Source: Bacteroidota bacterium
GTDB taxonomy: Bacteria > Bacteroidota > Bacteroidia > AKYH767-A > JAHEYN01
Assembly (NCBI GenBank): GCA_023251555.1
Contig: JAHEYN010000002.1
Coordinates: forward strand, 62,001 to 126,000
Reading direction: 5' to 3'
Length of the DNA: 64,000 nucleotides
Shown: in pieces, positions 7,463 to 49,730 of the stretch
Position numbering within the stretch: the first letter of the stretch is position 1
How the letters are laid out: the number at the start of each line of letters is the position of its first letter
Made by a program: the position numbers and the translations under genes
Notes under the pieces: model-generated
Told to the model about the DNA's origin: nothing
The model's input: the letters and a program-made list of their open reading frames with translations, nothing else
Databases searched by the model: none

Positions 7463-7513
7463 CACTATTTTCTTTTTGCACTGACGCCCCCTGACCGCAA
7501 AGGTGTTCGTTGT
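7463..7513 (-). repeat. Truncated attC-like half site after the VOC gene
   Basis: Read on the minus strand just after the VOC gene, this stretch (CACCTTTGCGGTCAGGGGGC, then TCAGTG and AAAAAGAAAATA) closely matches the left half of the palindromic site at 44359-44492 (GGGCTTTGCGGTCAGGCGGG, then TCAGTG and AAAAGAAAATAT). The complementary right half is absent; the sequence runs straight into the 3' end of the SBBP gene. The likely reading is a broken cassette-end site. The match is by eye. Confidence 0.5.
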
Positions 7514-43837: not shown

Positions 43838-44069
43838 TTAAATCTTGTCGAAAAATTTGTTGCTGTCGTCAATTATTTTCCGTCTAAATGCGTCAAGCAA
43901 AATATTGTTTATTTCTTCAATAAAGGGATAGGGACTCCAACGTAGACTCAAGGAACTTAGAAAATTCCTTGATCTCCCTTTCAGACCAGGAATCCTCTAT
44001 GTAATCGAAAATCTGATTGAGATTGTTTGTGGCCTCGAGCGACCATTCAATTCTTAAGCCACTTCTCAT
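43838..44069 (-). pseudogene. Degenerate ParE/RelE-family toxin
   Basis: The frame starts at an ATG (44069) overlapping the last bases of the antitoxin gene, and gives a ParE-like N-terminus (MRSGLRIEWSLEATNNLNQI, FDYIEDSWSE) but stops at 43917 after 50 residues. In another frame the sequence continues with ILLDAF and DDSNKFFDKI before TAA at 43838, resembling the ParE C-terminus (ILxLFDNRQNPxK). The central beta strands are missing, consistent with an internal deletion plus frameshift. Family assignment rests on the N-terminal pattern and gene arrangement. It should be inactive. Confidence 0.65.
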
Positions 44070-44277
44070 ATCTCTTTTTAACTGTCGAATGTGGCTTCAA
44101 TCTTCCTGCCTTAACATCTTTTAGTCCCCGCTCAATGGATTTAAGAGTATCGGGAGCTAAACCGTCTGACCAATCAGCTATCTCTCCCTGTAGCTGCTTT
44201 ACTTTTTGAACAGCACTTGGATCCTTGAGCGCTAAAATCCACTCTATCAGATGAAGTTTTTCGATTTGTATATTCAT
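44047..44277 (-). CDS. Antitoxin-like small protein paired with broken ParE
   Basis: A 76-residue helical, charged protein (MNIQIEKLHLIEWILALKDP, WSDGLAPDTLKSIERGLKDV, then KPHSTVKKRYEKWLKN). Size and position immediately 5' of a ParE-like toxin, with overlapping start and stop, match the small antitoxins common in Bacteroidota. Such proteins usually bind toxin through the C-terminus and DNA through the N-terminus. This copy looks intact while the toxin is broken, so it may be a solitary relic or protect against related toxins. Confidence 0.7.
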   Translation of the reverse strand: MNIQIEKLHLIEWILALKDPSAVQKVKQLQGEIADWSDGLAPDTLKSIERGLKDVKAGRLKPHSTVKKRYEKWLKN

Positions 44278-44358: not shown

Positions 44359-44492
44359 GCCTAACGGTTCGGGGCTTTGCGTTCGGGCGGGAGACCTGAC
44401 GAAGTCAGTGTCTACCGAGACGAACGCCCGAACCGAAGTTAATATTTTCTTTTACCACTGAAGCCCGCCTGACCGCAAAGCCCTTGTTAGCG
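44359..44492 (-). repeat. attC-like cassette recombination site 1
   Basis: Read on the minus strand the 134-bp site starts CGCTAAC and ends GTTAGGC (44359-44365 reads GCCTAAC on the plus strand). Inner arms GGGCTTTGCG / CGCAAAGCCC are perfectly complementary, followed by a second paired block GGCGGG / CCCGCC. The outer spacers differ in length (2 versus 6 nt), as with the asymmetric bulges of attC sites. The TIR gene's stop codon TAA lies inside the first core box, a classical cassette layout. Confidence 0.7.
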
Positions 44493-45536
44493 GGCGTTTT
44501 GTCTGTCTGTCGGTATAATTTTTTGGACAATATTGTCAAAGAGTACTGTCCAGATTTGGTAAAAAACCAAACTGTTATAATAGTCAATGAAATAATTTAT
44601 TGCATTGCTGTGTCTTTTTTCAGGAACTGTCTCAAATGATTTTAGCCACTCTTGGTCGTGTTCCATCATTTTTTTATTGTGTTTACCAATGACATTAAAA
44701 TAACTAATCCAAGTGTCCGCATTTTTTACTTGGAATAAAAAACTGTTTAGTAAGTCAATGAGTTCTGGAGAAAGTGTCAACGATTTATGGGTAAGAATGA
44801 ATTTAATGTCGTCAGAAAGTTTATTGATTGTCCGATAAAAAACTTCAAATACTTTTTCTTGGTGGAACATCATTAGCAATGAAATGTTATACAGGTTTCC
44901 TAATTTTTTAAATTCAATTTTATAATTGCTTATGTTTTCAATTTGAATTTTATTTATATCATTGATTTCTGTCGTTGAAGAGACAATAGAGTATTTTAAA
45001 AGTTCAACATTCCCTGCAAGTAAATTAAATACTGCTAATGTGTCTTTTGCTAATAGCGAACCTTTAATTTTACTTTCAAAATCTGTCACGACTTTAAAAA
45101 ATTCACTGTCGTCAATTGAAGGCGTTGCAATGTCATTGATAGCAGCAATTTTTTTGAATAACTTTTCTATGTCTGGTTTTTGGCTTATTTGTCCACCTTG
45201 CAATGTTTTTAGTGGGATTGGAAGTTCACCAGGTGTCAGTCCAGAGTGGCAAAGGGGAACAACAGGGATTTCTCTAACCCAGCCGCCACCTGCTTCAAAA
45301 TTAATCCAAGGTCTGCCAACTGAAAGAGGACTACACAGTACGATTTCAAGATTGCATTTTTTTAAAGATGTCTTGACTGTATTTATCCATTCATCTCCAA
45401 GTCCTACGCTGTCTTCGTGAGATGATGCAAAAACTTCAATGCTTTTTAAAAACTTTTTTTCAAGATAGTTTTTTAAACTAATTGCTAACTCTTTTTCTTC
45501 TGTGATGTGAGAAATAAAAACTATCGGTTTACTCAT
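44487..45536 (-). CDS. TIR-domain protein in a cassette-like unit
   Basis: A 349-residue protein. Residues 1-~135 are a TIR domain: KPIVFISHITEEKELAISLK, VFASSH, IVLCSPLSVGRPWINFEAG with E81 at the position of the catalytic glutamate of NADase TIRs. The rest (~140-349) is helical with no recognised domain (LLMMFHQEKVFEVFYRTINK) and may sense or oligomerise. Bacterial TIR proteins commonly deplete NAD+ during phage defence; that role here is inference. The gene has its own promoter and ends inside an attC-like site. It is AT-rich compared with flanking core genes, suggesting transfer. Confidence 0.85.
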   Translation of the reverse strand: MSKPIVFISHITEEKELAISLKNYLEKKFLKSIEVFASSHEDSVGLGDEWINTVKTSLKKCNLEIVLCSPLSVGRPWINFEAGGGWVREIPVVPLCHSGLTPGELPIPLKTLQGGQISQKPDIEKLFKKIAAINDIATPSIDDSEFFKVVTDFESKIKGSLLAKDTLAVFNLLAGNVELLKYSIVSSTTEINDINKIQIENISNYKIEFKKLGNLYNISLLMMFHQEKVFEVFYRTINKLSDDIKFILTHKSLTLSPELIDLLNSFLFQVKNADTWISYFNVIGKHNKKMMEHDQEWLKSFETVPEKRHSNAINYFIDYYNSLVFYQIWTVLFDNIVQKIIPTDRQNAR

Positions 45537-45562
45537 AATTGTCTGTCGTTATATTGAATTAT

Positions 45563-45592
45563 CAAAATTATCAAATTGTCTGTCTGCACAAA
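45563..45592 (-). promoter_or_regulatory. Sigma-A promoter inside the TIR cassette
   Basis: On the minus strand: TTTG (45592-45589), 18-nt spacer, TAATTTTG (45570-45563), ending 26 bases before the TIR start codon. Both boxes fit the Bacteroidota consensus, so this cassette need not rely on external transcription. The flanking word GACAGACAATT occurs on both sides. Confidence 0.65.
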
Positions 45593-45625
45593 ATTGTCTG
45601 TTGAAAACGGTCGTCATAAAATGCC

Positions 45626-45757
45626 CGCTAACGTTCCGCGGGCTTGCGAAGTGCGGGGTTTCGGAGCACTTCGCTGTCCGCAGGAACAAAGGTAATTAAA
45701 TGCAGTGAACATTATTTTACCTATGAAAGCCCGCATTGCGCAAGCCCGCTGTTGGGG
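45626..45757 (-). repeat. attC-like cassette recombination site 2
   Basis: Read on the minus strand the site starts CCCCAAC and ends GTTAGCG. The inner arms GCGGGCTTGCG / CGCAAGCCCGC are an 11-bp perfect complement, continuing with ATGCGGG / CCCGCAC. Spacer lengths on the two sides differ (1 versus 5 nt). Overall length is 132 bp, as for site 1, although most of the sequence differs, which is typical of attC sites. Confidence 0.7.
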
Positions 45758-46146
45758 GCTGTGCTTTTTTCTTGTCCTGCGCCACTGTCCACGAGGGAGA
45801 AGTAGTCTGCTTGCGCGTAACTGTCCCCATTTGGTTGTTTTGTTTTTTGTCTGCCGAAACCGAAGCGAAAAATAAAAACGAAGGGCGAGCCGATTTGCAA
45901 CCCATAAAAAAGTGTCTACCGAAAAATGAAGGTTGCAAATGGGCTTGCTCTGAGAACGGAAATATTATTTGGAGCAGTGTCAGCCGGTTTGCTCTTTTGC
46001 GCGGCAACAATAAAAATTATTAATAAAGACAAGCGCAAAAGTGCAAAGCCGGAACCGCCAGCGTTGCTGTCTGCCGTTGCGAACGTTATATGAAATGCGA
46101 AACTGTCCACTGCTTTACTTTGCCTTGTTGTATGCTTGAATATTAA
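45758..46146. other. Cassette-like segment without a convincing gene
   Basis: Short frames exist on both strands, but none looks like a protein. The segment contains three of the five copies of the word TGCGnnACTGTCCnC (45778, 45812, 46096). Near its right end, on the minus strand, ATATAACGTTCGCAACGGCAG could be a cassette boundary after the primase-like gene. It may be a gene-less or decayed cassette, or encode an RNA. Confidence 0.45.
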
Positions 46147-46770
46147 TTATTGTAGTAAGAAATTTTGCTTAAATAATTTTGGATATTGATAATAGTGGTC
46201 AGAATTGTTACTCCACCTAAGAAATGGATAGCCACTTAAAAGTCTATGAGCAACCCACCGAGTATCAACTATAGTGTCAAGTTCATTATAAAGCCTTGTA
46301 TAATTTAAAAGTAATATTGCAACAGTAAAACTTTTCCATTCGGAAAATTCTAATAAGGTATTGCCGTAACCATGGAATGACCTGCCTGATGAATAGATTG
46401 TCATTTCTTGCAATATGTTTTTATATTTTAAGATTTCTTTTGATTTAGAAAGTCGAAAATTTATTATTTCTAAAATCTCATCATCTATTCGTCTTGTATT
46501 AAAATCAATTAATGGCAAAAAGTACTCTTGACCATTAGGGAAGGAAATATTTCCATGAAAAGACAAATTCCATTCTAGTTCTAAATTATCCAATGTTTTC
46601 TTTAGCCATTCAATTGTTATATCCTGACTTTTAACAGTCAAATATTTTCTCAAATCAATATTCCTTCTATAACTGTATTGATATGTGCTGAAATGAAAGA
46701 TAGAATTATTTGGAATATTTAATTTAGAAATTAATTCAATCACTTTTAAAACAGGATGTTCGGAAAACAT
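46147..46770 (-). CDS. Primase-like (AEP-superfamily-like) protein
   Basis: A 207-residue protein without a close named match from memory. Its motifs follow the archaeo-eukaryotic primase order: IDFN (88-91, motif I-like acidic), SSGRSFHGYG (127-136, resembling the sxH motif), VDTRW (168-172, acidic third motif), then AHRLLSGYPFLRWS (174-187), like the R-x-x-G...LR-x-S segment that binds nucleotide in primases. The second acidic residue of motif I is replaced by N91. It begins 10 bases after the TIR/ParB-like gene, so the two form an operon. Function could be nucleotide or DNA-end recognition or synthesis; this is inference from motifs only. Confidence 0.5.
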   Translation of the reverse strand: MFSEHPVLKVIELISKLNIPNNSIFHFSTYQYSYRRNIDLRKYLTVKSQDITIEWLKKTLDNLELEWNLSFHGNISFPNGQEYFLPLIDFNTRRIDDEILEIINFRLSKSKEILKYKNILQEMTIYSSGRSFHGYGNTLLEFSEWKSFTVAILLLNYTRLYNELDTIVDTRWVAHRLLSGYPFLRWSNNSDHYYQYPKLFKQNFLLQ

Positions 46771-46780
46771 AATGATTCGC

Positions 46781-48268
46781 TTATATCATTTTTGTTGTCT
46801 CCGGAAACCAATCTGGTTTATGAAGATAAGTTTCAATTTTTCTAAACCTTTCTAAGTAACCAGCACTCGGAATGAATTCTTGAGGGACGCTGTATGAGGC
46901 TACTTTAATTCTATCCCACTTTGTCGGCTCGGTTGGCAATGGGACTTCCATGCCCTTTACGAGAACACAAGTGATAGGAATGTTACTTTGAAGGTGATTA
47001 AAAAATCTTGTATGCCCCTCAATTATAAAAAGTGCCCCCTTTTGATTTTCTACAACGGGTGGCACAAAATAATGTTTCTGTCCATTTTTTAATTTTATGG
47101 CAACAGGTTCATAAAGATTAAATTTATTTTCACTAAAGATTAAATTCAAAAGTAGAATTTGCTTCAACTTATATTCTTTAATTAAATTAAATGATTTTGG
47201 TAAAGTATCCTTTGGTTTTATTTGAGCCAAAGAAAATGTACACTTGTTTTGCGCATAAAGTGGAACCGTCTTAAACTTATTTAATATTTCTTCTTCGGAA
47301 ACACGTAATAACTCGGGTTTGAAAGAATCTGTTTTACTTATCGGAGTAATATTTTTCACAAAAGAATTTATTGTTGAAGAATGAATAGGTCCTTTATAAA
47401 AAAAAGCGAAAACATTCTTTCTTGCAAATCTTTTTGTTTTTATAATTAGTACAGAATAGTCTAAAGTATCAGCGTCCGAGAAGAAAGCAACATTTTCTGG
47501 TGCAATACCTGTTGGATATTGGATTACATTACAGCCAAGTTGTTTGAATAATTCAACACAAAATGAAATTTCATGTGTGTCAACAAGGGGATAATAATGG
47601 ATGTCAATTTGAATGTTATTTAATTTCGCATATACTATAGAAGTAATTAAATCAAAAACTATCAATCGCTCATTGCTTGTGATTACAAAAGTTACATATT
47701 TGCGAGCGCTTTTCAACATATCAACCAATTTTGAAAGCATATCGCCCTCATATTCTAATATTCCAAATACTGAAGTATCCATTGGAATCTTTTGAGCCTT
47801 TGCTGTAGTAATTCGCTCTATTTTCTTCATTATAATTAAACAACTTGAACTTAAAGCGTCAATAAGTTCTTCTTCTTTCCGTTGACCGTCAAAAGTTGCT
47901 ATAGTTATGCCAAATAAGTCCGAAGGAATTCGTCCAGTACTAAGATAATCAGACGGAGTAAGGATAAATGCTCTATCAAGTCCATTGACTCCAAGGAAAA
48001 GTCCAAATTCAAAAATCACATTATCACGCGTAGTTTTATAAAATTTATCGCGTAATTCAAGAACATCGTCTGGACTAAAGATAAATATTCCAAAATCGTA
48101 TTCATGAAATGTTTTGTAAAGAGCAGGTAACGCATAGTCGCCAGGCTCCATTGTTACCTCCCATAATTTTGTATGGGCATATTTATTATTTAGGAACATA
48201 TGTACGGCATGCGCATATTTCACATATTCTGTAGAAGAAGCAATAAATATTCTTGGTTTGTCGCTCAT
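46781..48268 (-). CDS. TIR + PLD-like + ParB-like fusion protein
   Basis: A 495-residue protein. Residues 1-~135: TIR-like domain of the predicted nucleotide-binding type found in CBASS and Pycsar effectors (RIFIASSTEYVKYAHAVHM, DFGIFIFSPDD, RDNVIFEFGLFLG with E87 as the likely catalytic residue). Residues ~165-300: alpha/beta domain resembling a phospholipase-D fold (MLSKLVDMLKSARKYVTFVI ... FFSDADTLDYSVLI) but with no HKD motif. Residues ~380-450: ParB/sulfiredoxin-like fold (VPPVV, LFIIEGHTRFFNHL; GHTR at 418-421). The gene starts an operon with the primase-like gene in a cassette-like unit. A nucleic-acid-sensing NADase for defence is plausible but unproven. Confidence 0.7.
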   Translation of the reverse strand: MSDKPRIFIASSTEYVKYAHAVHMFLNNKYAHTKLWEVTMEPGDYALPALYKTFHEYDFGIFIFSPDDVLELRDKFYKTTRDNVIFEFGLFLGVNGLDRAFILTPSDYLSTGRIPSDLFGITIATFDGQRKEEELIDALSSSCLIIMKKIERITTAKAQKIPMDTSVFGILEYEGDMLSKLVDMLKSARKYVTFVITSNERLIVFDLITSIVYAKLNNIQIDIHYYPLVDTHEISFCVELFKQLGCNVIQYPTGIAPENVAFFSDADTLDYSVLIIKTKRFARKNVFAFFYKGPIHSSTINSFVKNITPISKTDSFKPELLRVSEEEILNKFKTVPLYAQNKCTFSLAQIKPKDTLPKSFNLIKEYKLKQILLLNLIFSENKFNLYEPVAIKLKNGQKHYFVPPVVENQKGALFIIEGHTRFFNHLQSNIPITCVLVKGMEVPLPTEPTKWDRIKVASYSVPQEFIPSAGYLERFRKIETYLHKPDWFPETTKMI

Positions 48269-48426
48269 TTAATTTTCTTTTTTTATGTTAACTAAAGTAG
48301 TGAAATTACTGTACTGCTGTCCACCGAGTGCGGAACTGTCCCCCACTCTTTTGTCTGTTTTTTAATTGCATAAAAGCGTCTGGTTACTGCGTCACTGTCT
48401 ACGGAGAACTGTCTGGTTTTAGCATT

Positions 48427-48631
48427 GCCCCCAACGGGGCGATTTACGCAGTGTTCACGATAAGGAGCAGGCACGGGAGTAACGCATTTCGCGTTACGGA
48501 GTGGCTGCGGGAATATCGTGGACACTTTTCGCTTTGTACGGAACATTGTCGTAAATCGGGTGTTGTACGAAGCCGCATTCGCGGTTTTTGTACAGGACAA
48601 ATTTAGCGAAAAGTAAATCGCCCCGTTGAAC
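48427..48631 (-). repeat. attC-like palindrome 3
   Basis: The 205-bp element, read on the minus strand, begins GTTCAACGGGGCGATTTAC and ends GTAAATCGCCCCGTTGGGGGC. The 12-bp inner arms (GGGGCGATTTAC) are perfectly complementary and sit directly beside the AAC/GTT core, without the asymmetric spacers of sites 1 and 2. It lies about 160 bases upstream of the TIR/ParB-like operon. Related in design but less typical of attC. Confidence 0.5.
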
Positions 48632-49586: not shown

Positions 49587-49656
49587 TTTAATCCGCCTTT
49601 GCGTTCCGCTACGGCGGACAAGAGGGTTCGGGGCTTGCCCCGGAGATAATACCAAA
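49587..49656 (+). repeat. Dispersed ~70 bp hairpin repeat, copy C
   Basis: Same element as copies A and B: TTTAATCCGCCTTTGCGTTC, CGCTACGGCGGACAAGAGGG, TTCGGGGCTTGCCCCGG and ATAATACCAAATT. The arms TCCGCC and GGCGGA are intact. Copy D follows directly in tandem. Confidence 0.85.
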
Positions 49657-49730
49657 TTAATCCGCCTTTGCGTTCCGCTACGGCGGACAAGAGGGTCCGC
49701 GGCTTGCCCCTGGTTAATACCATTTTATTA
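49657..49730 (+). repeat. Dispersed ~70 bp hairpin repeat, copy D
   Basis: Tandem partner of copy C, differing by a few bases (TCCGCGGCTTGCCCCTGG, GGTTAATACCA). Its right end runs into the -7 box of the methyltransferase gene, so repeat insertion may have contributed promoter sequence. Confidence 0.85.

Follow-up and report, generated by a model that had tools for sequence, protein, structure and literature searches.

What kind of unit carries the TIR gene of this locus, what might its product do, and does the unit bring its own start of transcription? The window, by which we mean the whole stretch of 64,000 nucleotides analysed here (G000:C52:62001-126000), belongs to a draft genome of 2.84 Mb in 55 contigs that is 97% complete. 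A first-pass annotation had described a self-contained TIR cassette with its own promoter and with its stop codon inside an attC site; this observation is confirmed and largely holds, whereas its interpretation is supported in part. Positions 44365-45631 form a complete mobile gene cassette with one probable anti-phage suicide gene, which would encode a TIR enzyme with an uncharacterised helical domain. The reading that we favour, and consider rather likely, is that of an integron-type cassette distant from any integrase (CALIN-like), with a single-gene TIR defence protein acting through abortive infection and with transcription starting inside the cassette.

The cassette and its neighbours

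The TIR gene cassette lies on the minus strand and measures 1,267 bp (44365..45631), its first base being the one that follows the upstream crossover G and its last the crossover G of its own attC, and is delimited by paired ends. On the minus strand its upstream bound reads ...GGAACG|TTAGCGGGCATTTT, with the crossover at 45632/45631; it starts with GTTAGCGGGCATTTT and ends with AAAACGCCCGCTAAC, reverse complements over 14 of 15 nt, with one mismatch. Integron cassettes are recognised by an attC with R''/L''...L'/R' pairing 3' of the gene and by a start boundary of the same sequence with a G^TT crossover, and this cassette has both, in keeping with its earlier description as self-contained. 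Its attC (44359..44492, minus strand) has R'' CGCTAAC at 44492-44486 and R' GTTAGGC at 44365-44359, and reaches 13.5 on an attC score of our own making, a value equalled at about 0.1% of random places (p = 0.001). As expected in integron arrays, the chromosomal R' is a hybrid whose last six bases come from the next cassette; because insertion of a cassette makes R' hybrid in this way, a plain fold-energy scan missed the attC sites. An Rfam search returned nothing credible except tRNA. The stop codon TAA (44489-44487) indeed falls inside R'', a feature that is not special to this cassette, since it recurs in the R'' of the related L007 cassette (GGGCTAAC) and in the L097 cassette described below.

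The attC of the upstream cassette (45626..45757, minus strand; R'' CCCCAAC, R' GTTAGCG) has a z of -6.9, and an attC-like site upstream of that cassette (48429..48631, minus strand; 12-bp inner stem GGGGCGATTTAC/GTAAATCGCCCC) has a fold z of -10.4, both against mononucleotide shuffles. With three sites between 44359 and 48631, recognised by our own pairing, fold and score analysis, the locus corresponds to a CALIN, defined as at least two attC sites without a nearby integrase. At two adjacent sites the cassette ends match in pairs, and terminal pairing extends over 13-17 nt at three related loci, while pairing of at least 9 nt is seen in only 7% of random loci. The usual attC cores are of 7 nt; pairing of cassette ends over 13-15 nt is seen in the window (44500-44486 with 45632-45618) and at L007, L008 and L102. 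Some cassette ends also have in common an AGCA-type element (AAAAAAGCACAGCCCCCAAC, AAAAAAGCACTGGCTATAAC, GAAGCACAGGGCATAAC).

Both neighbouring cassettes are read from the minus strand. The upstream one (45632..48434; ends GTTGGGGGC and GCCCCCAAC) holds, according to Pfam, a PCTIR (PF10137)-iHKD (PF24402) gene at 46781-48268 and an AEP-like (PF24387) gene at 46147-46770. The two unrelated TIR genes that had been reported from adjacent cassettes are thereby recovered (PF13676 and PF10137), with the neighbour corrected to a two-gene unit. This unit is a candidate second defence system and, at 2.8 kb, large for a cassette; our literature search on iHKD found nothing relevant. The cargo of the downstream cassette (43917..44277) consists of a 76-aa antitoxin-like ORF (44047-44277), whose match reaches only E = 0.081, and a truncated ParE-like remnant (43917-44069; ParE_toxin E = 0.0018, below its cut-off). 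As read from its sequence this ParDE-like pair is degraded, and viral contigs searched with the antitoxin-like ORF yielded no relative.

Almost no integrons have been reported in Bacteroidota by IntegronFinder 2.0 (PMC9024848). We found no IntI over the curated cut-off in the host genome, and of 295 genomes of the class one has an IntI. The best integrase fragment in the host is a 54-aa C-terminal piece of a tyrosine recombinase (Phage_integrase match, about G000:C31:37397-37558), which directly precedes a run of three cassettes (G000:C31:37397-41000; L102, L117) with an LCM methyltransferase gene, a lipoprotein-like gene and a BNR/YCF48 gene with a sorting tail. Fragment and cassettes together look like a broken integron, 54 residues being too short to prove IntI identity.

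The TIR protein and its relatives

The TIR gene (44487..45536, minus strand; ORF call and Pfam) begins with ATG, encodes 349 residues and is present in a single copy in the host genome. A profile search recovers the TIR domain claimed earlier, with a TIR_2 (PF13676) match at E = 7.7e-8 and 33.3 bits against a cut-off of 28, over residues 6-120 (45177..45521, minus strand). The putative catalytic residue holds up as well: E81 (codon 45296-45294, minus strand), within RPWINFEAG, aligns with the WxxxE-motif glutamate of AbTIR ('DWTNYE'), and it is invariant across 18 relatives. Both structural features of a TIR NADase, the TIR fold and the catalytic glutamate, are thus present by Pfam, AlphaFold2, fold search and AbTIR alignment. 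In the AlphaFold2 model of the whole protein (pLDDT 82.7) the TIR fold is followed by a helical bundle that includes a 44-residue helix. On the TIR side, the leading matches of this model in a PDB fold search are EcThsB (top), the TIR-APAZ of SPARTA and SpbK, with a modest best E of 3e-3; deoxyribosyltransferases and DNPH1, which we take to be the wider fold class around TIR, are also among the matches. Weak PADLOC matches to Thoeris ThsB are confined to the TIR part, and fold matches to viral proteins apparently concern the TIR half only.

The C-terminal domain (residues 140-349; 44490..45119, minus strand), which we presume to be a sensor, is all-helical in the AlphaFold2 model and conserved in the four full-length homologs. 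The earlier description of it as belonging to no known domain stands: the C-terminal parts of the four homologs gave no match in a Pfam scan (best E 0.96), and the C-terminus gave none against PDB sequences. A PDB fold search with the C-terminus alone returned nothing at E<=0.001, a miss that is weak evidence since the model has a pLDDT of 66, and a plasmid search with this domain found no relative except that of Paraburkholderia. HEPN identity was considered and ruled out by eye, the candidate His not being conserved.

The full-length homologs come from Lacinutrix (46% identity), a Bacteroidales MAG (49%), Cyclobacterium (45%) and a Paraburkholderia megaplasmid (40-41%), and two of the four lie in attC cassettes. 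The Lacinutrix gene ends in AACAAGGGC-TAA-C and starts after GTTAGCCCTTATT, as a cassette with the stop codon in the core, and the Bacteroidales homolog sits within a two-cassette run. The Cyclobacterium homolog is found among phage-type genes and that of Paraburkholderia near an IS66-like element (both named by eye), and no attC was found at either. Settings in which the gene stands solo are cassettes, a housekeeping junction, a stretch of phage genes and the surroundings of an IS66-like element, and the homologs (L007, L008, L009, L115) share no consistent partner gene. About 30 more proteins share the TIR half alone (about residues 1-156; best 40-54% identity) and have different C-termini, from which it follows that the TIR half is, at the level of sequence comparison, a mobile module joined to varied C-terminal domains, with recurrent carriage in cassettes. 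An identity of about 50% between TIR halves with otherwise different C-termini is expected if these proteins are built from modular effectors and sensors. What appears new is that homologs and TIR-half relatives are also carried in attC cassettes; two of the TIR-half relatives, L011 and L024, are so placed, L011 by score and L024 by eye, its score not being significant. At L024 (5966-6880, Extensimonas) the start codon of the TIR gene overlaps the R' core GTTATGC and its stop codon overlaps R'' GCATAAC. A literature search for defence tests of any named relative found none.

Promoter-like sequence, proposed function and alternatives

Inside the cassette, at 45563..45592 on the minus strand and 26 nt from the ATG, lies a promoter-like sequence of Bacteroidota type, TTTG-N18-TAATTTTG (45592-45563: TTTGTGCAGACAGACAATTTGATAATTTTG). 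The pattern was matched in 0.36% of shuffles of the 95-nt leader (p = 0.0036); in the whole window it occurs twice against 2.1 expected, so that the motif alone is weak, and its second occurrence, at -73 from a gene start and on the right strand, likewise directly precedes a gene. The leaders of the related cassettes L007 and L008 (26 and 47 nt) contain no full promoter consensus. The own promoter of the first-pass annotation thus amounts to a single match to the consensus that the family as a whole does not share, and we regard an in-cassette promoter specific to the TIR cassette as plausible. Its statement that toxins and defence genes typically bring their own promoters is borne out in the literature for toxin-antitoxin and some resistance cassettes (PMC11014356). 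For defence cassettes, expression independent of the integron promoter is reported in V. parahaemolyticus, its generality being left open there (PMC12409362).

Since no gene is consistently paired with it, the TIR protein is probably a one-protein sensor and NADase effector that causes abortive infection in the manner of SpbK. In SpbK of Bacillus subtilis the phage portal is recognised by a separate domain, which brings the TIRs together as an active NADase (PMC12847820), and by this analogy the helical domain would sense a phage product or state and cluster the N-terminal TIR domains, which would then cleave NAD+. Loss of NAD+ would stop the infected cell before phage release, and a transcription start within the cassette would allow the gene to work at any position. 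The two proteins match in the TIR fold and in joining, in a single protein, a TIR domain (a putative NADase here) to a separate non-TIR domain; however, SpbK has its portal sensor at the N-terminus and its TIR at the C-terminus, whereas here the TIR occupies residues 6-120 of 349 and no relation of the helical domain to the SpbK sensor was detected. In favour of the proposed reading as a whole we count the TIR_2 match over the cut-off, the invariant E81, the fold neighbours EcThsB, TIR-APAZ and SpbK, the adjoining TIR cassette, the ParDE-like remnant, and the paired ends and attC sites; against it we count the modest PDB fold match, the TIR-only PADLOC matches and the consensus-only promoter.

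As a defence TIR the protein might instead produce a signal (of the cADPR or His-ADPR type) or need partners, for example the adjacent PCTIR/AEP cassette, rather than act as a stand-alone killer. EcThsB, which makes the Thoeris signal, heads the fold matches and another defence-like cassette adjoins, but we consider this unlikely, given that no ThsA-like gene adjoins, in the window or beside the homologs, that the homologs lack a common partner, and that the large C-terminal domain, 210 residues that set the protein apart from ThsB, fits sensing within the protein. An assignment to SPARTA finds no basis either, as no APAZ domain or adjacent short Argonaute was matched by Pfam in the TIR protein, the homologs' C-termini or the scanned neighbours. 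We give little credence to a TIR fold that serves another nucleotide reaction or is inactive; the deoxyribosyltransferases and DNPH1 in the fold search would suit it, but the WxxxE glutamate is invariant in the 18 relatives. It is very improbable that the gene stabilises the array as an addiction module, arresting growth upon loss or induction: HigBA-like and ParDE-like cassettes do occur in the same genome, yet the TIR cassette has no antitoxin ORF and no antisense candidate was identified. That there is no cassette and the repeats arose by chance is hardly credible, for, despite the lack of an IntI over the cut-off, the terminal pairing, the attC score and the pairwise match of cassette ends all argue otherwise.

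Under the favoured reading of a cassette-borne TIR defence gene, the view that integrons store phage defences, which comes from Vibrio and from mobile integrons (Darracq 2025, Getz 2025, Kieffer 2025, summarised in PMC12409362), would extend to Bacteroidota. As there, a small one-gene defence candidate lies between attC sites; here, in contrast, the candidate was recognised from sequence, and the host is a member of the Bacteroidota without intact IntI and with few, scattered cassettes. The neighbouring Cap12/PCTIR family likewise has a TIR-type domain, but differs in its PF10137 domain, iHKD fusion and AEP-like partner. The analysis singles out a TIR family that is repeatedly found in cassettes of different species, puts forward its unclassified helical domain as an obvious candidate for a new phage sensor, and provides a case for a direct test of cassette-autonomous expression.

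The GACA signal and other attC loci

Among 4,000 overlapping 1-kb segments examined, the TIR cassette is the richest in GACA/TGTC (observed/expected 3.9, median 0.88). The excess is confined to the sense strand, with 27 GACA against 5.0 expected and 3 TGTC against 3.3. Shuffles preserving the protein and codon counts gave 10.7±1.8 GACA for the TIR ORF (21 observed), 16.7±2.4 for the C31 BNR gene (32), 7.2±1.4 for the C31 lipoprotein gene (12) and 6.0±1.5 for the L011 TIR gene (11), and mere codon usage is rejected as the explanation in these four genes. No excess beyond such shuffles was seen in three host genes or in the PCTIR and AEP genes, and that of the C31 LCM methyltransferase gene failed the same test (p = 0.145); these tests were picked after the signal had been seen and cover few genes. 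The loci with an excess are 44365-45631 of the window, L102 3700-6001/L117 1-1500 and L011 1815-2750. The whole-genome count of GACAGACAA is not raised (21 against 32 for reversed-pattern controls), and it is only clustered in cassettes. It is a tentative and rather doubtful extension that integron-type cassettes of Bacteroidota form a shared and poorly recognised pool, marked by paired ends of 13-15 nt and strand-polar GACA, in which TIR effectors would be recurrent cargo spreading between species without a resident integrase.

Further loci with attC sites or their remnants lie on C19, C10 and C51 of the host genome and in the window itself. That on C19 is a HigBA-like toxin-antitoxin cassette (L097 3813-4490) with an HTH_3 antitoxin, and its stop codon falls within the attC core (GCATAAC). 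On C51 (L099 1300-2500) CCGACAGACAAAA stands before an attC site, an arrangement shared with the TIR cassette, and after the site comes an ATPase gene that looks, by eye, to be of OLD/AAA type. At 7466-7502 of the window a half-site attC remnant lies 3' of a VOC-family-like gene (named by eye), and at 49588-49710 there are two 54-nt direct repeats, 96% identical and 69 nt apart from start to start.
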